Shown: positions 1 through 9,475 of the stretch, in pieces
Position numbering within the stretch: position 1 is the first letter of the stretch
How the letters are laid out: each line of letters opens with the position of its first letter
Assembly (NCBI RefSeq): GCF_000155635.1
Contig: NZ_DS990556.1
Coordinates: 310,001-374,000, forward strand
Source: Cyanobium sp. PCC 7001
Lineage (GTDB): Bacteria > Cyanobacteriota > Cyanobacteriia > PCC-6307 > Cyanobiaceae
Direction: 5' to 3'
Length of the DNA stretch: 64,000 nucleotides
Notes under the pieces: model-generated
What the model was told of the DNA's origin: nothing
The model's input: only the letters and a program-made list of their open reading frames with translations
Databases searched by the model: none
Program-made: the position numbers and the translations under genes

Positions 1-645
1 TACGCCAGCCAGCGGATCCAGGCCCTGACAGGCTGGACCCCCGCGGAGGTGTGCGAACGGCCGGAGCTGCTCGAGGAGGCGATCGCCCCGGCCGACCGCG
101 CCAGGGTCCGGGCCGCCCGCGACCCCCTGCAGAGCCACTGGTCGATCACCTATCCCTTCACCACCCGTGACGGCCGCCAGCTCTGGATGAAGGAGTCGGC
201 CCGGGTGGTCCGCAATGGCGAGGAGCGCTTCGTGGTCGGCACCCTGGCCGACGTCACCGACGTGCACGGCCTGCAGGAACGGGCCGATGAACTCGCGGCG
301 ATCTTTGAATCCGTGTTCCAGAACGCCAGCTTCGGCGTGGCCGTGCTCGACGGGCAACAGCGCGTCGTGATGGCCAATGGGGTGTTCTGCGCTGCCGTGG
401 GCTTCGACCCGGGCTCGATCACGGGGGTGAGCGCGGCGATGCTCTGCCCGCAGGAGGAGCTGGAGGCCCTGATCCGGGAGGCCCGGGAGCGGGGCGATGG
501 CGATGGGGGGCCGCCCTCCGCTCGACCCGTGCTTTCCCTCAGAAACCGTGAGGGAGCGCTCCAGCCTGTGGCGGTGGAGCTGCGCCTGCCCCGGCAATCC
601 CTCGCCAGGGAGTGGATCACGCTGCTGGTGCATCCCCCTGCCTGA
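1..645 (+). CDS. PAS-domain sensor protein, C-terminal part (5' end outside window)
   Basis: The reading frame is open from the first base of the window, so the gene begins upstream. The visible 214 residues hold the end of one PAS fold and its PAC segment (RDGRQLW, then FVVGTLADVTD), then a short linker and a second PAS domain (ESVFQNASFGVAVLD). The protein stops soon after the second PAS with no histidine kinase, GGDEF or EAL module behind it. PAS domains bind ligands or cofactors or mediate protein contacts. Any output domain would have to lie in the unseen N-terminal part. It is followed on the same strand by a sigma factor, so a role in transcriptional signalling is possible but inferred. 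Confidence 0.8.
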   Translation, partial: YASQRIQALTGWTPAEVCERPELLEEAIAPADRARVRAARDPLQSHWSITYPFTTRDGRQLWMKESARVVRNGEERFVVGTLADVTDVHGLQERADELAAIFESVFQNASFGVAVLDGQQRVVMANGVFCAAVGFDPGSITGVSAAMLCPQEELEALIREARERGDGDGGPPSARPVLSLRNREGALQPVAVELRLPRQSLAREWITLLVHPPA

Positions 646-797
646 CGCGGAGACATCCGGCAGCCGGTCGGCAGGGCTGTGCTTTATCGCAAAGGTGCTG
701 CATTGGCGCACAGGTGCAGCGTTCGGGATGGCCCCAGTGGGGGGCCGGAATTATCCCCTTACGGTGAAGCCACGAGAGAGGAAAGCAGGGATCGGCC

Positions 798-1805
798 ATG
801 GTCTACAACCCGGTACAGGATCGATTCCACGCAGCAGCGCCGCAGAGCGAGCAGGAACCGGCACGGCAGGGGGACCAGGACCAGGAGATCGATCCTCCGG
901 ATCCTGTTCCGAAGGCATCGCGCGATGCCCGCCTGGCCCCCGCCCATCCCCGCTTCCGCGGCGGCGATGGCCTCAGTGACTATCTGCGCCTGATCGCGCG
1001 CGTTCCCCTGCTCACGCCCGCCGAGGAGCTGCACCTCGCCGGCACCGTGCAGGAGTGGCTGCAGCATCCGGATCCGCCGCTGTCACTGCGGCGTCGGGGA
1101 ACCAGGGCCCGCAATCGCATGGTCACCGCCAATCTGCGCCTGGTAGTGATGGTGTGCCGGCGCTATCGCGGCCGGATCGGCAATCTTCAGCTCGAGATGC
1201 TGGATCTCTACCAGGCCGGAAACATCGGCCTGATGCGTGCGGTTGAACTGTTCGATCCTTCGCGGGGTTACCGCTTGTCCACCTACGCCTTTTCCTGGAT
1301 TCACCAGGCCGTTCAGCGCTGCATGACGGCCACCGGCAACGGCATTCGCATTCCCACCGCACTGCGCAACATCGCCTACCGCGCCCAGCTGCTGGAAGCC
1401 TGCGCGGAGCAGCCCCTCTCCATCGGCGCCATAGCCGCGCTCCTCGGGGAGAAGGAGCAGCGCCTGCAGACCGCCCTCACCGTGGTGCGCCAATGCAGCA
1501 CCACATCGCTGGACAAGCCCTCAGCAAGCATGGGGGAGGACACAACCCTGATCGAGGTGATCCCGGATCGGCGCGGCAACGTGCCGCACGATGACTACCG
1601 CTGGCTGCATGAGCATCTGGACGCTCTCGATCTGCGCGACCGGCAGGTGCTCCAGCTTCGCTACGGCGACGATGAGTCCCGCTCCTGCTCCAAGACAGCG
1701 CGCGTACTGGGGGTGAGCAAGAGCTGTGTCCAGAGTGTCGAGCGCCGCACCCTGAAGAACCTGCGCCGCCGGTTGGGTCCGGTTCTCGATCCCAGGGGGG
1801 GCTGA
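798..1805 (+). CDS. RNA polymerase sigma-70 family factor (group 2/3, cyanobacterial type)
   Basis: The 335-residue protein carries the sigma-70 blocks in order: a region 1.2-like segment (DYLRLIARVPLLTPAEE), region 2 (NLRLVVMVCRRYRGR, DLYQAGNIGLMRAVELFD, STYAFSWIHQAVQR), region 3, and a region 4 helix-turn-helix near the C-terminus (ARVLGVSKSCVQSVERR). Region 1.1 is absent and the protein is short, which fits a non-essential alternative sigma factor rather than primary RpoD. The first about 50 residues are charged and unlike the family. Its stop lies 3 bases before the start of the KaiB-like/PAS gene, so the two are probably co-translated. The ATG at 798 is the first in-frame start before region 1.2. 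Confidence 0.9.
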   Translation: MVYNPVQDRFHAAAPQSEQEPARQGDQDQEIDPPDPVPKASRDARLAPAHPRFRGGDGLSDYLRLIARVPLLTPAEELHLAGTVQEWLQHPDPPLSLRRRGTRARNRMVTANLRLVVMVCRRYRGRIGNLQLEMLDLYQAGNIGLMRAVELFDPSRGYRLSTYAFSWIHQAVQRCMTATGNGIRIPTALRNIAYRAQLLEACAEQPLSIGAIAALLGEKEQRLQTALTVVRQCSTTSLDKPSASMGEDTTLIEVIPDRRGNVPHDDYRWLHEHLDALDLRDRQVLQLRYGDDESRSCSKTARVLGVSKSCVQSVERRTLKNLRRRLGPVLDPRGG

Positions 1806-1808
1806 GGC

Positions 1809-3050
1809 GTGCCCAGCACCGACTGCGCCCCCGTGCCGGCGACGACGATCCCGGCCCACGACGTCCCCTGGATCTGGACGCTGTTCATCTGCGGCGGCGC
1901 ACCGGCCTCGGCCGCAGCGCTGTGCCGGTTGCGTCACCTCTGCGATCAGGAGGGAAGCACCCGGGTGGAGCTCCGGGTGGTGGATGTGTCCAGCGACCCC
2001 GAGCCGGCCCTCCGGGCCGGCGTGCGCGCCATCCCCAGCCTGGTGGCCGATCCGCTGCCGTCGGCGGCGCCACCGTGTTCGGCGCTCCGCAGCGGCCCGC
2101 CAGGGTGGTTCCGCCGGCGCCTGCGCCAACTCCAGGCGGAGAACGCTGCCTTGCGGGCTCTGGTGGAGGCGATCACCAGTGGAGAGGCGGATGCCCTGGT
2201 GGTGAACGGCGGTGTGTACCTGCGTGAAAGCGGCGACGCCTGCTACCGCCACCTGGTGGAGCAGATGGGTGAGGCGGTCGCCACCCTCTCCTCCACCGGA
2301 GTGGTGCTGTACGCCAACCCGCGTCTTGCCGAGCTGCTTGATCATCCCCGGCAGAGCCTGCTTGGCCGCACTCTGGACGCCTTCCTGCCCCCTGACCAGC
2401 TGAAGATCTTTCAGCGGTTGCGGGCCGCGGGCCCTGGCCGAACCGAGCGGGCTGCCCTGGATCTGGTGGGGAGCGACGGCCGCGGCCTTGCGGTTCTGGC
2501 GACCCTCAGTGGTCTGCGCAGCGCAGGCGCTGCGACCCAGAGCCTGGTGCTCACGACCCTCGCCGCCAGGCCGGCCGCGCCAGTGGCCGCAGAAGGCGAT
2601 GTGCTCACGCTCCTGGCCCGCCGCCATCGCCACACGCACCGCACCCAGCCGCTCAGCCTGCTCCTGTGTGCCCTCTCCGAGGCCCAGCTGCTCCGTTATC
2701 CGCCCGGAACCGCGACCGGTGATCTCCTCTGGCGGGCCTTCACGGAGCGCCTGGCGCAGGCCCTCGGACCTGACGGCCTCGTGGGCAACTTCGCCACAGG
2801 CCAACTGCTCGGCGTGACAGCGGGCGTGGCCCACATCGGCGAGGCCACGGCCCTGGTGGAGCGGGTGCACGCGACGCTCACCCTGCCGTTGGATCTGGGG
2901 GGCGATCCGGTTGTGATCGATCCCTGTGTGGGCATGGCCCTGGAGACACCGGGCAGCCGGCTGGAGGAGCTGCTGCTGCGGGCGGAGCAGGCCCTGGAGC
3001 AGGCCCGGCCCCGCAACACACCACGCAACCTGGCGATTGCGATCCTGTGA
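1809..3050 (+). CDS. KaiB-like domain / PAS / degenerate GGDEF signalling protein
   Basis: Three parts are visible in 413 residues. Residues about 20-80 resemble the thioredoxin-like KaiB fold found in KaiB and at the N-terminus of SasA: a first strand (WTLFICGG), a helix, a strand (ELRVVDVSSDPE) and an IPSLV segment where KaiB has TPTL. A short coiled linker (RLRQLQAENAALRALV) follows, then a PAS domain (MGEAVATLSSTGVVLYANP). The C-terminal about 150 residues follow the GGDEF layout but have GNFATGQLLGV where the GG(D/E)EF loop should be, so cyclase activity is unlikely. GTG start, 3 bases behind the sigma factor stop. KaiC binding or redox/light sensing is an inference from the domains. Confidence 0.75.
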   Translation: MPSTDCAPVPATTIPAHDVPWIWTLFICGGAPASAAALCRLRHLCDQEGSTRVELRVVDVSSDPEPALRAGVRAIPSLVADPLPSAAPPCSALRSGPPGWFRRRLRQLQAENAALRALVEAITSGEADALVVNGGVYLRESGDACYRHLVEQMGEAVATLSSTGVVLYANPRLAELLDHPRQSLLGRTLDAFLPPDQLKIFQRLRAAGPGRTERAALDLVGSDGRGLAVLATLSGLRSAGAATQSLVLTTLAARPAAPVAAEGDVLTLLARRHRHTHRTQPLSLLLCALSEAQLLRYPPGTATGDLLWRAFTERLAQALGPDGLVGNFATGQLLGVTAGVAHIGEATALVERVHATLTLPLDLGGDPVVIDPCVGMALETPGSRLEELLLRAEQALEQARPRNTPRNLAIAIL

Positions 3051-3330: not shown

Positions 3331-4485
3331 GTGAACAGCTTCAACAAGGACATCACAGCAGGGCTCCTGAGCGACTGCCCTCCTCCTTGCCTCTCGCTCT
3401 ATCAACCCACCCATCGGCACGATCCGGACAACCAGCAGGACCCCATACGTTTCAGGAATCTGGTCAAGGCGCTGGAAGAGTCGTTGCAGAGACGTTTGCC
3501 GCAGGGTGAGATCGAACCCCTGCTGCGGCCCTTTCTGGCGCTCGCCCATGACCTCGATTTCTGGAATCACACCCTCGATGGCCTGGCTGTGCTCGGAGCC
3601 CAGGATCTGTTTCGGGTCTACAAACTCCAGCATCCAGTAGCGGAACTAGCGGTTGTCGCCGACAGTTTTCACCTCAAGCCGCTACTGCAGATCCTTCAGT
3701 CCGCTGACCGCTATCAGGTGCTCGGCCTCAGCCGCACGGAGGTCAGGCTCTTCGAGGGCAGCCGGGACGCCCTGGACGAAATTGATCTGGCCGCGGAGAT
3801 CCCCCGAACCATGACCGAGGCCCTGGGGGCGGACGTGACGGAAGCGCACCACACCGTTGCCTCCTATGGCGGGGTGGGTGCCGGACACGCCCCCATGCAC
3901 CATGGCCATGGTGGAAGAAAGGCCGAGGCGGATCACGATACGGAGCGCTTCTTCAGGGCCGTCGACAGCGCCGTTCTGGAACACCACTCCCGGCCATCGG
4001 GCCTGCCGCTGATCCTGGCGGCCCTGCCGGAGCACCATGCCCTCTTCCACGCAATCAGCCACAACCCCTTCCTGATGCAGGACAGCATCGACATGTTTCC
4101 AGAGGAGAACTCCTCAACGGAGCAGCTGCGGCAACGGGCCTGGGCAGTTCGAGAGCCTCAGGTCCTGCATCACATGGCCGCCCTGATGGAGGAGTTTGGC
4201 AGTGCCTGCTCTTCAGGACAGGGTGACGACACGCTGGGTCCCGTGGCGAAGGCCGTAGTGGATGGGCGAGTGGCTACATTGCTGATTCAGGCCCAACGGA
4301 ACATCCCGGGCCGGCTGAACCCTCAGACGGGCGAGATCGAGTTGGGGCAGTTGGAAGATCCGAACGTCAATGATCTTCTTGACGACCTCGGCAAGACGGC
4401 TCTCCAGATGGGAACAGAAGTGGTGGTACTCCCTGCCGCCAGAATGCCTACCATGACAGGGATTGCTGCCATCTACCGCTACTGA
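3331..4485 (+). CDS. Bacterial archaeo-eukaryotic release factor (baeRF) family protein
   Basis: The 384-residue protein opens with the family-typical CLSLYQPTHR segment followed by QDPIRFRNLVKALEESL. It continues with the eRF1-like middle region (DRYQVLGLSRTEVRLFEG) and the His/Gly-rich loop (HAPMHHGHGG) before ERFFRAVD. These features match the baeRF families, relatives of eRF1/Pelota thought to act on ribosomes under stress; the biochemical role is unproven. The GTG start is supported by a near-consensus AAGGAGA site. It is the first gene of a + strand stress run. Lower confidence applies to the exact baeRF subfamily. Confidence 0.75.
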   Translation: MNSFNKDITAGLLSDCPPPCLSLYQPTHRHDPDNQQDPIRFRNLVKALEESLQRRLPQGEIEPLLRPFLALAHDLDFWNHTLDGLAVLGAQDLFRVYKLQHPVAELAVVADSFHLKPLLQILQSADRYQVLGLSRTEVRLFEGSRDALDEIDLAAEIPRTMTEALGADVTEAHHTVASYGGVGAGHAPMHHGHGGRKAEADHDTERFFRAVDSAVLEHHSRPSGLPLILAALPEHHALFHAISHNPFLMQDSIDMFPEENSSTEQLRQRAWAVREPQVLHHMAALMEEFGSACSSGQGDDTLGPVAKAVVDGRVATLLIQAQRNIPGRLNPQTGEIELGQLEDPNVNDLLDDLGKTALQMGTEVVVLPAARMPTMTGIAAIYRY

Positions 4486-4579
4486 GCGGACGTGGCAGTG
4501 CTGCGAACCGGCCTTGCCTAGGCCACTTGGTTTCTGACCGTAGGTTGCTGAGGATGACGAGTCTGTTGATGAGGCAGGC

Positions 4580-5572
4580 ATGACGTACAGGGACAGCCAG
4601 CAACTACGTCCAAAAGACGTGGAACTGGTCATCGGAGCTTGGGGTGTCAGGAACTACCACACCACGCTGGAGCAACGCGCCATCTCGGGTGCAACCATCA
4701 CCGGTGGATACATCTCCATGGTGGTGGCCGCCACAGTGATGGCAACGGCAGGGCTCCTGCTAAACAGTGCGGCCGTGGTCATCGGGTCGATGTGTGTCGC
4801 TCCGTTCATGGCACCCTCGCGGGCGGTATGCATCGGTGCGCTGTTTCGAAATGGTCGGGTCTTCCTCGGTGGCATCATCAAGCAGTTCTTCGGGCTGCTC
4901 TTGATCGGCGCCTGTGTTTCCGCTGCCATTACATTCTTGTTGCGGAGTTGTCTTTCAGGTATTGACATCACTCCTGAGATTCTGCTGAGGGCGATGCCAT
5001 CGGCAAGGGACGTGGTTCTGAGCACGCTGATTGCAGTGTCGGCCGGTGCGGCGGCCTCCCTGGCGTTGATTTCCCAGCCGAACATCGTGGAGCATCCCTG
5101 GGGGCAAGCCATCGATGCGGTGATCGGCGTGCAGGTGGCGATCTCGCTCATTCCACCCGCAGCCGTGATTGGCATCGGATGGGCCCTCGGACAGCCAGAG
5201 CACAGCTGGAACGCATTCTCTCTGCTGCTGCTGAATGTCGCAGCTCTGGATCTGGTCGGCAGCGTCTCCATCCTTGCCATCAGCGGTGTACGACGCCGGC
5301 ACCTGGAGCTCGAGAAGAGCATTCGCGGCATCGTGGCGGGATTGCTCAAAGCCGTAACCAATTTCATTGCCCTTGGCAGCTGCGTGGATGTCACCCTTCT
5401 GGGTGAATACGAAGCTGTTGTGGATGTCCGACTGCGGTGCCGCCTCGGCGGTGAGATCCCAGATATTCTCGCCGATCAGATTGGTACAGAGATCATGGCG
5501 AGTACGTCTTGCCACGTTGATGTCGCCGTGGAGATCATCTCCATGCTCTCCTATTCGTCCATCAGTGACTGA
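4580..5572 (+). CDS. DUF389 family multi-pass membrane protein
   Basis: The 330-residue protein matches the DUF389 (TIGR00341-like) pattern: a short soluble N-terminus, then hydrophobic helices including TGGYISMVVAATVMATAGLL, SAAVVIGSMCVAPFMAP and further segments to about residue 240, and a soluble C-terminal domain of about 80 residues ending in ISMLSYSSISD. The family is widespread in bacteria and has no established function; it is often found with stress genes, as here. ATG start at 4580, 94 bases after the baeRF stop. Confidence 0.8.
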   Translation: MTYRDSQQLRPKDVELVIGAWGVRNYHTTLEQRAISGATITGGYISMVVAATVMATAGLLLNSAAVVIGSMCVAPFMAPSRAVCIGALFRNGRVFLGGIIKQFFGLLLIGACVSAAITFLLRSCLSGIDITPEILLRAMPSARDVVLSTLIAVSAGAAASLALISQPNIVEHPWGQAIDAVIGVQVAISLIPPAAVIGIGWALGQPEHSWNAFSLLLLNVAALDLVGSVSILAISGVRRRHLELEKSIRGIVAGLLKAVTNFIALGSCVDVTLLGEYEAVVDVRLRCRLGGEIPDILADQIGTEIMASTSCHVDVAVEIISMLSYSSISD

Positions 5573-5866
5573 AAGAGAATCGTCCCGCAACGCGGGTGCC
5601 GCTCGCGCAGCACGTCGTTGCTCCTGCGGTAGGCCGGTCCAGTGAAAGGGGATGGGCCAAGGAGTGGACTTCGCTGAACTGGTCTCGACCGAGAGGTGAG
5701 GCTTTCCATGGAGAAGGGCTTCAACACTCGTCATACTGCTGAACTCCCAGGCTGCAACACGTGGCAATGGATCACTCGACTGAATCATCCGTCCTTATCC
5801 CATTGGTTGAATTCGGCCCGGACCGACCTGGCTAAGCTTAAAGGGAAGGAACGGGACACGCCATCG
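5573..5866. other. Leader region of the CsbD gene
   Basis: About 290 bases with no separate gene recognised. An in-frame extension of the CsbD reading frame reaches back to ATG codons at 5696 and 5708, but the encoded residues resemble nothing and would bury the signal-like segment. The hairpin at 5584-5596 is the only clear structure. Confidence 0.45.
5584..5596 (+). terminator. Small hairpin after the DUF389 gene
   Basis: Perfect 5-base stem CCCGC/GCGGG with a 3-base loop, 12 bases after the DUF389 stop. No T-run follows, so it may be a weak terminator, an RNA-stabilising hairpin or chance in GC-rich DNA. Confidence 0.3.
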
Positions 5867-5902
5867 ATGAATCTACGGATGAATCTACGGATGAATCTAC
5901 GT
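5867..5902 (+). repeat. Tandem 12-base repeat, three copies, over the CsbD start codon
   Basis: ATGAATCTACGG occurs twice exactly and a third time with one change (final G to T). The period is four codons, so each copy adds Met-Asn-Leu-Arg and another possible start codon. Confidence 0.95.
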
Positions 5903-6241
5903 TGGAAGGATCTTGTTGCCTCGCTGATGGCTTCTGCGGTGTTGATGATCACGATCATTCTCCCCCTGAGCGGTGTTGCGATGGCTGCAACTGGACAGCC
6001 TCAACCCATTGCATTCTTAACGATGTCAAACAAATTCGACGCTGCAGCCAAAGACGCAGAGGGCAAGCTGGAGTCGGCCTATGGTGAACTCACGGGTGAT
6101 CCTGGCCACCAGATCAAGGGCAAGGCCAAGCAGGTTCAGGCTTCGGCCATGAATGTGGCTGGCAATCTCAAGGATGGCGCTGCATCTGCGGCCAGGGGAG
6201 TGCGCGATACTGCGGGAAAGGTGGCCGATGATCTGAGCTGA
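5867..6241 (+). CDS. CsbD family stress protein with N-terminal membrane/export segment
   Basis: From the ATG at 5867 the protein has 124 residues. The C-terminal half is a CsbD domain (KFDAAAKDAEGKLESAYGE, GDPGHQIKGKAKQVQ), a small helical family induced by general stress. Unlike the classical 60-70 residue cytosolic CsbD, a hydrophobic segment (ASLMASAVLMITIILPLSG, followed by VAMAA) precedes it, suggesting export or membrane anchoring; cyanobacterial CsbD proteins often have this layout. The first residues are three copies of MNLR/MNLRW encoded by a 12-base tandem repeat, so three in-frame ATGs (5867, 5879, 5891) compete. An AAGGGAAGGAA stretch lies about 15 bases upstream of the first. 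A hairpin follows the stop. Confidence 0.75.
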   Translation: MNLRMNLRMNLRWKDLVASLMASAVLMITIILPLSGVAMAATGQPQPIAFLTMSNKFDAAAKDAEGKLESAYGELTGDPGHQIKGKAKQVQASAMNVAGNLKDGAASAARGVRDTAGKVADDLS

Positions 6242-6247
6242 GTCTTC

Positions 6248-6277
6248 GGGATGCCGCACCAGAAGCGACGGCATCCC
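6248..6277 (+). terminator. Hairpin after the CsbD gene
   Basis: Perfect 9-base stem GGGATGCCG/CGGCATCCC with a 12-base loop, starting 6 bases after the CsbD stop. There is no T-run, so it may act as a terminator or mRNA end-stabiliser. Confidence 0.5.
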
Positions 6278-6353
6278 CTGACAGATCAGAAAAGACAGTT
6301 CCAGGCCTGAGTATAGCTTCTATCCCCATAATCCATCCTCACTGGAGAGAGCG

Positions 6354-6500
6354 ATGCTGGAGTTGATTGTCGTTGTTCTGGTTGTTCTCTGGCTCCTAGG
6401 GTTTCTCACAAACTTTACCCTCGGAGGCTTGATTCATGTCCTGCTGGTCATTGCCGTAATCGCCATTCTGCTGCGTCTGATTCGAGGGCGTGGCCTCTGA
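6354..6500 (+). CDS. DUF5670 / lmo0937-type mini membrane protein
   Basis: This 48-residue protein reads MLELIVVVLVVLWLLGF, a short turn (LTNFTLGGLIH), then VLLVIAVIAILLRLIRGRG. The two hydrophobic helices joined by a TLGG turn and ending in basic residues are the hallmark of the lmo0937 family (DUF5670), small stress-associated inner membrane proteins of unknown function. A GGAGAGA site 4 bases before the ATG supports translation. It sits between the CsbD and DUF302 genes, both stress-linked. Its 3' end overlaps a possible GTG start of the next reading frame. Confidence 0.8.
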   Translation: MLELIVVVLVVLWLLGFLTNFTLGGLIHVLLVIAVIAILLRLIRGRGL

Positions 6501-6522
6501 ACCCCTGAAGTGGCCCGATCCC

Positions 6523-6927
6523 ATGGATCAATTCTTCATTCTGGAGACAGCGAAATCATTCGACGAGGCCAGTGCCGACATGCATGCTGCCGTGGCAGCC
6601 CATGGCTTTGGTGTGTTGTCCTTGCTTGACCTCGGAGAAAGTCTGCGCAGCAAGGGCATCACCTTTGTTGAGGAGTGCCGGGTGATGGAGGTGTGCAACC
6701 CGCAACAGGCAGCCAGGGTGCTGAGAAGCGACATGAAGCTGACCATGGCCCTGCCTTGCCGGATCGCCGTGTACACCCAAGCTGGCCAGACCAGCATCGG
6801 CATGATCCGCCCCGCAGCCATGCTGAGCAGCCTGTCCTCCGATCCCGAACTGATGGAGGTGGCGCGAGAGGTGGAAGCCTCTGCTATTGGCATCATCCAG
6901 GAGGCCGCTTCGCGGCGCGGGCGCTGA
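6523..6927 (+). CDS. DUF302 family protein
   Basis: From the ATG at 6523 the protein has 134 residues and shows the DUF302 pattern: an N-terminal strand and helix (AKSFDEASADMHAAVAAHGF), then GVLSLLDLGESLRSKG, the central CNPQQAARVL segment and LPCRIAVYTQAGQTSIG. The DUF302 fold is known from structures but its biochemical role is not; members are often near stress, sulfur or metal genes. An upstream GTG at 6490 would overlap the mini membrane gene and adds unconserved residues, so 6523 is preferred. Confidence 0.8.
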   Translation: MDQFFILETAKSFDEASADMHAAVAAHGFGVLSLLDLGESLRSKGITFVEECRVMEVCNPQQAARVLRSDMKLTMALPCRIAVYTQAGQTSIGMIRPAAMLSSLSSDPELMEVAREVEASAIGIIQEAASRRGR

Positions 6928-6979
6928 GGTTCACGGCCTGCTAAGACAAGACCTCTCAGGACAATCAGGCATCAGGACA

Positions 6980-9475
6980 ATGGGTCCCACACGTCAGAAC
7001 CATGGTCCCAGTGGGAAATGGGAGACGCTGGATACAGAGCAGCTGCTGCACGCACTGAAGTCATCCCCAGCTGGCCTGAGCCAGACAGAGGCTCTGCACC
7101 GTCTGAGAGAGTACGGCAGCAATGAGATCAAAGAAAGAAAGACCAATCAGATCCTGAAGTTTCTGACCTATTTCTGGGGTCCGATTCCATGGATGATTGA
7201 GTTCGCTGTGGTGCTTTCGGCACTCGCCAGGCACTGGCCAGATCTTGTCATCATCCTCGTGCTGCTGCTGGCCAACGGGGTGATCGGCTTCTGGGAAGAA
7301 CACCAGGCAGGCAATGCCATTGCGGCGCTCCAGGCCAAACTGGCCTTGAAGGCCCAGGTGAAGCGGGATCAACAGTGGACAACTCTGGAATCGCGGGAAT
7401 TGGTGCCTGGCGATGTCGTCCATCTGCGCCTCGGCGACATTGTGCCGGCGGATGCCCGCTTGTTGGCTGGTGAGCCACTGCAGGTGGATCAGTCGGCGCT
7501 AACGGGTGAATCGTTGCCCACCACACGTTCCAGTGGCGATGTCGTGTTTTCAGGATCCATCATTCGCCAGGGGGAGATCGACGCGTTGGTCTTTGCCACA
7601 GGTGGATCCACCTACTTCGGCAAGACGGCGGAACTTGTGCAATCTGCCCACAGCGTGAGCCATTTTCAACAAGCCGTGTTGAAGATCGGGAACTATCTGA
7701 TCCTGCTCGCGCTGATTCTGGTCACCGTGATCATGGCCGTGGCGCTGTTCCGCGGAGATCCCCTGCTCACAACCCTTCAGTTCGCCTTGGTGTTGACTGT
7801 GGCGGCGATTCCCGTGGCCATGCCCACCGTCCTTTCCGTGACCATGGCGGTGGGGGCACGTCTGCTCACGAAGAGGGGAGCCATTGTGACCCGCTTGGCG
7901 GCCATTGAGGAGCTGGCTGGGGTCGATGTGCTGTGTTCGGACAAGACCGGCACACTGACCCAGAACACGCTCACCCTGGGGGCACCCTTCAGTGTGGATC
8001 GCTCCGGCGACGGCCCAGGTTCAAACCTGGTGACGTTGTACGCCGCACTGGCATCACGTTCGGATAACAAGGACCCGATCGACCGGGCGGTGCTGGGCGG
8101 CCTGGGCGAGGGCCAGAGCCTGGATGGCTACCAGGTGGTTCACTTTCAGCCCTTTGATCCGGTGCACAAGCGCACCGAGGCCACCATCCGGCGCGGAGAC
8201 GGCGGGGACTTCAAGGTCACCAAAGGGGCCCCTCAGGTGATCCTGGCCTTGTCTTGCAACCGCGCCGAGGTCTCGGCTTCCGTCGAGCACGCCATCCATG
8301 GGTTTGCAGCACGCGGATACCGGTCTTTGGGGGTGGCTCGCACGGATGCGGAAGGCCACTGGCAGTTTCTGGGGGTCTTGCCCCTGTTCGATCCCCCTCG
8401 CCGGGAAGCCCGGGCGACCATCGCCACCGCCCACGAGATGGGCGTGATGGTCAAGATGATCACCGGTGACCAATTGCCTATCGCCCAGGAAACGGCGGAG
8501 AAGCTGGGGCTGGGCTCCCTGATCCTCGATGCCAACGGGTTTGGAGCCACCCAGACCGCTCAAAAGGGGTTGTTGGCGAAGTCGATCGAACAGGCGGATG
8601 GATTCGCGCAGGTGTTTCCGGAGCACAAGTTTCAGATCGTGCAGGTTCTCCAGCAGCACGGCCACATCGTTGGCATGACGGGAGACGGGGTCAACGATGC
8701 TCCCGCCCTGAAGCAGGCCGACTGCGGCATTGCCGTTTCGGATGCCACGGATGCGGCCAGAAGTGCCGCTTCGATAGTGCTGATGAGCCCAGGCTTATCC
8801 GTGATCATCGATGCGATCAAGGCAAGCCGCAAGATCTTCCAGAGAATGACCAGTTATGCAATTTACCGCATCGCCGAAACACTGCGCGTTCTTCTGTTCA
8901 TGACGGCCTCGATCCTGGCGTTTAACTTTTACCCTGTAACCGCCGTCATGATCGTGATGCTTGCCTTGCTCAATGATGGCGCCATACTCTCTATTGCGTA
9001 CGATAACGTCCATTACAGCAATACCCCAGAAAGATGGAATATGCGCATTGTGCTTGGGGTCGCCACTGCATTGGGCGTGGTTGGCGTCGCGTCAGCCTTT
9101 GGACTGTTCTTTCTTGGCGAGCGTATCTACAATCTCGATCGTTCTCATCTCCAGACGCTGATGTACCTGAAGCTTTCTGTGGCAGGGCATCTGACGATCT
9201 TCCTGACGCGGACTCGTGGTCCATTCTGGTCTATCCGTCCATCAAGGGTCCTGCTGCTGGCAGTGTGCGGAACCCAGTTGCTCGCCACGCTGATTGCGGT
9301 GTATGGATGGTTCATGGCTCCGCTGGGATGGAGTTGGGCCCTGGCGGTATGGGGCTATGCCCTGGTCTGGTTCGTGGTCAATGACCGCCTCAAGTTGGTG
9401 GTCTACCGGTTTCTGAACTCAGAACCACAGGCTGATGGGGCGGCGCGACTCCGGCAGGCCAGCATCATTGGCTGA
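6980..9475 (+). CDS. Plasma-membrane-type H+ (P3A) P-type ATPase
   Basis: The 831-residue protein has the P-type ATPase order: N-terminal cytosolic segment, two transmembrane helices (residues about 65-105), actuator domain with TGES at about 175, two more helices with AAIPVAMPTVLSVTMAVGAR, phosphorylation site DKTGT at about 321, the nucleotide-binding domain, hinge motif TGDGVNDAPALKQAD, and about six C-terminal helices. The length, GSNEIKE start and PVAMP motif match proton-efflux type IIIA ATPases of plants, fungi and some bacteria. It would use ATP to extrude protons and energise the membrane or control pH. The ATG at 6980 is preferred over 6887, which overlaps the DUF302 gene. No plant-type C-terminal autoinhibitory tail is evident. 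Confidence 0.9.
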   Translation: MGPTRQNHGPSGKWETLDTEQLLHALKSSPAGLSQTEALHRLREYGSNEIKERKTNQILKFLTYFWGPIPWMIEFAVVLSALARHWPDLVIILVLLLANGVIGFWEEHQAGNAIAALQAKLALKAQVKRDQQWTTLESRELVPGDVVHLRLGDIVPADARLLAGEPLQVDQSALTGESLPTTRSSGDVVFSGSIIRQGEIDALVFATGGSTYFGKTAELVQSAHSVSHFQQAVLKIGNYLILLALILVTVIMAVALFRGDPLLTTLQFALVLTVAAIPVAMPTVLSVTMAVGARLLTKRGAIVTRLAAIEELAGVDVLCSDKTGTLTQNTLTLGAPFSVDRSGDGPGSNLVTLYAALASRSDNKDPIDRAVLGGLGEGQSLDGYQVVHFQPFDPVHKRTEATIRRGDGGDFKVTKGAPQVILALSCNRAEVSASVEHAIHGFAARGYRSLGVARTDAEGHWQFLGVLPLFDPPRREARATIATAHEMGVMVKMITGDQLPIAQETAEKLGLGSLILDANGFGATQTAQKGLLAKSIEQADGFAQVFPEHKFQIVQVLQQHGHIVGMTGDGVNDAPALKQADCGIAVSDATDAARSAASIVLMSPGLSVIIDAIKASRKIFQRMTSYAIYRIAETLRVLLFMTASILAFNFYPVTAVMIVMLALLNDGAILSIAYDNVHYSNTPERWNMRIVLGVATALGVVGVASAFGLFFLGERIYNLDRSHLQTLMYLKLSVAGHLTIFLTRTRGPFWSIRPSRVLLLAVCGTQLLATLIAVYGWFMAPLGWSWALAVWGYALVWFVVNDRLKLVVYRFLNSEPQADGAARLRQASIIG

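Follow-up and report, generated by a model that had tools for sequence, protein, structure and literature searches.

Why does a gene for a protein that joins a KaiB-like domain to PAS and GGDEF domains lie directly behind a sigma factor gene in Cyanobium sp. PCC 7001, and does this protein carry the state of the circadian clock to that sigma factor? Both genes lie in the window, by which we mean the whole stretch of 64,000 nucleotides that was analysed (G000:C1:310001-374000, G000 being the 2.83 Mb source genome), and an earlier note had read the second as a new type of output protein, possibly passing clock or light state to transcription. Our analysis confirmed the observation of a sigma gene followed by a gene for a KaiB-like/PAS/degenerate-GGDEF protein, and partly supported the interpretation. 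The two open reading frames (798–1805 and 1809–3050) are indeed separated by 3 bp, and the domains follow one another in the order described, KaiB-like/PAS/GGDEF, all three above Pfam cut-offs. The PAS protein said to precede the pair does contain PAS domains, but the window takes in just its C-terminal part: it is a CheB/CheR/PAS hybrid of 1128 aa, encoded by a gene that starts 2.7 kb beyond the window edge. The locus is laid out as follows:

1..645 (+): 3' end of the CheB/CheR/PAS hybrid gene, with CheB_methylest, CheR and PAS domains
693..717 (+): direct repeat AGGTGC-N13-AGGTGC, a candidate cis element upstream of the sigma gene, from genome comparison
798..1805 (+): divergent group-2-type sigma-70 factor, 335 aa, ATG start, with regions 1.2, 2 and 4
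1809..3050 (+): KaiB-half/linker/PAS/degenerate GGDEF protein, 413 aa, GTG start, from open reading frame, Pfam and model
1869..2054 (+): KaiB-like half-domain, residues 21–82, beta1-alpha1-beta2-alpha2, without the fold-switch C-terminal half
2106..2210 (+): linker helix, residues 100–134, common to PAS proteins encoded behind kaiC2-kaiB
2229..2558 (+): PAS domain, residues 141–250
2592..3047 (+): degenerate GGDEF domain, residues 262–413, motif ATGQL

By domain content the 335-residue protein belongs to group 2, with sigma regions 1.2, 2 and 4 each exceeding its Pfam cut-off, and it is a divergent member, scoring 170 bits against the cyanobacterial RpoD/SigA subfamily model (NCBIfam TIGR02997), below the cut-off of 384.5. 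Its best paralogue in its own genome is 37% identical, and the copy in G099 is 79% identical. In six genomes of two genera (G000, G099, G155 and G180 in one, G023 and G069 in the other), a sigma gene of this kind is directly followed by a homologue of the second gene, so that the co-occurrence in relatives on which the earlier note had staked its proposal is borne out. The gap between the sigma stop and the partner start is 3 nt in five genomes and 4 nt in one, and none of the six partner genes has a broken reading frame. At each of the five loci with enough sequence to tell, a long CheB/CheR/PAS-type gene lies ahead of the sigma gene, with domains scanned in the window copy only; the similar gene in G099, G155, G180 and G023 encodes ~1000–1150 aa.

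The direct repeat AGGTGC-N13-AGGTGC lies upstream of all six PAS-linked sigma genes, its first half reading AAGTGC in G155 and G180, and was absent from the 20 sigma relatives that have no such partner, for some of which the upstream sequence was short. Neither G000 nor G099 contains another perfect copy of the repeat. With one mismatch allowed, 20 copies were counted in G000 against 11 for a control pattern, which is not far above the control, and a regulon could therefore not be called from the repeat. Sigma relatives without a PAS partner are common in the family, including close ones in G035, G150, G157, G182 and G189, so the partner is not obligatory for the sigma factor. The PAS-linked sigma genes do not form one clade in the sigma tree, with a single clade not being rejected (p-AU 0.11). 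We consider it likely that the partner is functionally linked to the sigma factor. In open-licence literature, no protein with a KaiB domain was found to be paired with a sigma gene, searches of such papers for KaiB with sigma or GGDEF gave no lead, and neither did a scan of viral contigs. To our knowledge, no KaiB-domain partner gene lies beside the clock-coupled sigma genes of Synechococcus elongatus.

The second gene most resembles the output member of another Kai system. In the linker-PAS family, 20 of the 33 public-genome loci have a KaiC gene and KaiB immediately upstream, spanning cyanobacteria, Actinomycetota, Pseudomonadota, Myxococcota and Verrucomicrobiota, and linker-PAS adjoins kaiB in 8/8 matches from other cyanobacterial families. 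The KaiC partner that was examined falls into the R. sphaeroides type (E 1e-169, versus about 1e-101 to 1e-98 for canonical-type KaiCs), a type named KaiC2 (PMC11372060). The six sigma-linked linker-PAS proteins form one clade (100/98) nested inside the cyanobacterial KaiC2-linked group, and homology to the KaiC2-linked relatives runs through additional PAS domains up to the GGDEF domain. The KaiB half likewise joins KaiC2-linked KaiBs (100/98, and 100/99 for the larger group), rather than KaiB1 or SasA. An origin of the second gene in a KaiC2-KaiB-PAS triad is highly probable. The resemblance to KaiB and SasA claimed earlier thus divides: kinship with KaiB stands, and kinship with SasA was rejected by the tree, the HisKA/HATPase kinase domain also being absent. 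What is shared with SasA is an N-terminal domain like KaiB, carried by a protein that may feed a transcription output.

The window genome itself holds no kaiC2, either in the same operon or elsewhere. KaiC2 is absent from G000, G099, G155 and G180, where the only strong match is the canonical KaiC, 38% identical. G023 and G069 keep an orphan kaiC2-kaiB pair elsewhere in the genome (L188:3368-5544 and L189:10101-12274, respectively), and in neither case was a linker-PAS output gene detected next to it; for this reason the triad was probably split. The simplest story would place this split in an ancestor where the output gene settled behind the sigma gene, Cyanobium losing KaiC2 later; the KaiB half may either have persisted and become fused or have been acquired anew.

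The parent arrangement is known, from kaiC-kaiB followed by histidine kinase or GGDEF/EAL genes (PMC3164672) and from the kaiC-B-PAS/HK operons of R. palustris and R. sphaeroides (PMC4794148), which share with the window the linker-PAS family, the KaiB lineage and the kinds of output domain. Unlike KaiC2-KaiB-PAS operons, the window genome lacks KaiC2, its KaiB is halved and fused, a sigma factor gene lies upstream and the GGDEF domain is dead. Of the new output-protein type once proposed, what is new is the relocation of a KaiC2-KaiB output protein to a sigma factor.

Two further arrangements were seen among KaiC2-type loci. At L037:8691-10541, a KaiC2-type gene is immediately followed by one for a 617-aa protein that joins a complete KaiB to PAS-PAS-HD-GYP, an independent or intermediate case of KaiB-output fusion. 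Two kaiB genes precede the PAS output gene in KaiC2-type operons of several phyla (L132, L133, L135, L136, L143, L147 and L168-L175).

In the C-terminal part of the window protein, Pfam places PAS at residues 146–241 and GGDEF at 271–402, both above cut-offs, and the full model contains a confident PAS domain and a confident GGDEF fold that match PAS-GGDEF structures. As had been noted, the GGDEF domain is without its signature loop, which reads ATGQL, and the metal-binding stretch is CALSEAQ where an intact relative has CDLDHFK; the GG(D/E)EF motif and metal-binding Asp residues that mark a diguanylate cyclase are missing. Sequence comparison shows this loss of catalytic residues, and it is graded across relatives, with GGDEL in KaiC2-linked proteins, GGDQL in G023 and G069, NVDQL in G155 and G180, GEGKF in G099 and ATGQL in the window. 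PAS content varies as well: G180 has extra PAS material, G099 has two PAS domains and the window has one. No LOV-type signature was seen by eye in the window PAS domain, and the suggestion that it reports light state finds no footing there.

The N-terminal domain matches KaiB (PF07689) at residues 25–79 with E 7.6e-8 and 32.4 bits (cut-off 27), and its G099 homologue does so with 33.9 bits. The match covers profile positions 2–56 of 82; positions 57–82 are unmatched, and the motif PPPxRRIIGDL...RVLxGLDL, common to the other KaiBs aligned apart from SasA, is absent. AlphaFold2 gave beta-alpha-beta-alpha at residues 21–69, a low-confidence stretch at about 76–96 that includes very low confidence at 77–90, and a helix at 100–123. 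Among solved structures, the N-terminal model matched KaiBs best, as the earlier note had anticipated, with R. sphaeroides KaiB (8fwj, PMC10076222) in first place, but none of the matches reached E 0.05. No matching structure was found for the low-confidence stretch; the alignments behind the two structure models were shallow (27 and 19 sequences), so that low model confidence is not proof of disorder.

The halving of KaiB is not a sequencing or frameshift artefact, since the independent single-contig genome G099 shares the truncation. The KaiB-bearing sigma-linked form occurs only in G000 and G099 among 400 family genomes, and a third KaiB match only in the same two among 13 genus genomes; the source genome's own canonical KaiB and SasA are separate genes, with canonical kaiBC present. 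KaiB is absent from the other four sigma-linked homologues. Apparent KaiB-region matches in G155 and G180 ran across a stop codon: the sequence in question is the tail of the sigma gene, and the partner proteins start at the linker.

Between the window and G099, the KaiB halves are 77% identical, with dN 0.13 and dS 0.86 (dN/dS about 0.15). The same pair gave dN 0.13 and dS 0.95 for the sigma core, dN 0.23 and dS 0.85 for PAS, dN 0.31 and dS 1.13 for GGDEF, and dN 0.39 and dS 1.28 for the linker. In this one sequence pair, the KaiB half is the most constrained part of the protein, close to the sigma core. These values bear on the possibility that the second gene is a product of decay, an output protein that has lost KaiC2, enzyme activity and domains and merely persists behind the sigma gene, its KaiB half having little or no role. 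Just such a graded loss of PAS domains, KaiB and the GGDEF motif is visible over the six copies. However, every copy has kept its frame, and the junction and cis element have been preserved. Between the window and G099, each folded domain also has a dN/dS far under 1, the smallest value being that of the KaiB half, which makes decay an unlikely account.

Whether the KaiB half could serve as a direct clock output, docking canonical KaiC and passing circadian state to the sigma factor, was the central suggestion of the earlier note. A KaiB kinship above the Pfam cut-off, a genome with canonical kaiBC and SasA, and the strong purifying selection on the KaiB half all speak for it. In KaiB, however, the C-terminal half switches fold and makes most of the contacts with the CI domain of KaiC (PMC6378743), and this is the half that the window protein lacks, sharing with KaiB only the beta-alpha-beta-alpha N-terminal half and ending in a stretch of very low model confidence; binding of KaiC by the known fold-switch mode is therefore unlikely. 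The half also traces to KaiC2-linked KaiBs; their KaiC is only 38% identical to the canonical one and is absent from this genome, and 4/6 sigma-linked homologues have no KaiB at all. A KaiC-binding surface is thus disfavoured, and we regard the direct-output reading as very unlikely. Just as improbable is that the degenerate GGDEF domain is a c-di-GMP or GTP receptor whose sigma gene is co-expressed without being its direct partner, an idea that the confidently modelled fold and the role of degenerate-GGDEF proteins as interaction modules in E. coli (PMC5635695) would favour, but against which stands the loss of the signature loop together with the metal-binding residues.

We place slightly better than an even chance on the remaining reading, in which the output arm of a KaiBC2 system has been re-employed as a coupled regulator of the sigma factor. 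The second gene would have begun as the output gene of a KaiC2-KaiB-PAS/GGDEF operon and, in an ancestor within the Cyanobium/Synechococcus group, would have come to lie directly behind the divergent group-2-type sigma gene, an origin and a linkage that trees and synteny support. As comparison shows, KaiC2 is now missing from the Cyanobium lineage, two species carry the N-terminal half of KaiB fused to the output protein, and the GGDEF domain has been stripped of its catalytic residues. The protein would be made in step with the sigma factor through translational coupling, its PAS domain would read a cellular signal, and the dead GGDEF domain and KaiB half would serve as docking sites for proteins, at which the sigma factor or some other partner is held or let go. 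The arrangement suggests that the output arm of a timer has been rewired to control transcription directly, with the arm of the KaiC2 timer now presumably acting on transcription initiation itself. Direct control of the sigma factor by its partner could equally well prove true or false, and we are evenly divided on the KaiB half as a docking module that does not use the known KaiC surface. An extended version seems distinctly improbable, namely that the ancestral KaiC2-KaiB timer, possibly still present in G023 and G069, acts on transcription initiation via a dedicated sigma factor with the displaced output protein as partner, and that the Cyanobium KaiB half hears the canonical clock by something other than the fold-switch contact.

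Regulation of this kind has precedents in part. In the E. coli PdeR-DgcM-MlrA trigger-enzyme switch, GGDEF-family proteins act on a transcription factor by direct contact (PMC5635695), whereas in the window the partner is a sigma factor and such contact is our inference. In Synechococcus elongatus, sigma factors such as sigC work downstream of or together with the Kai clock (PMC5199125). For KaiB-KaiC timers outside the canonical clock, other output routes to gene expression must exist, since the SasA homologues found beyond cyanobacteria have no KaiB-like domain (PMC5520375). Here, gene order binds an output arm to a single sigma factor and a single cis element, in small genomes, and the stages of loss (KaiC2 present, KaiC2 absent, KaiB halved, KaiB missing) make up a natural series for studying the wiring of timer output to transcription and what a lone KaiB half can do.

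On the 3' side of the pair, the genes at window positions 3331-9475 look like a stress set by sequence. We take them to encode a DUF389-like membrane protein, a CsbD-like protein, a DUF302-like protein and a P-type ATPase, and what is presumably a CsbD-like gene follows the PAS-GGDEF gene in G180 as well.
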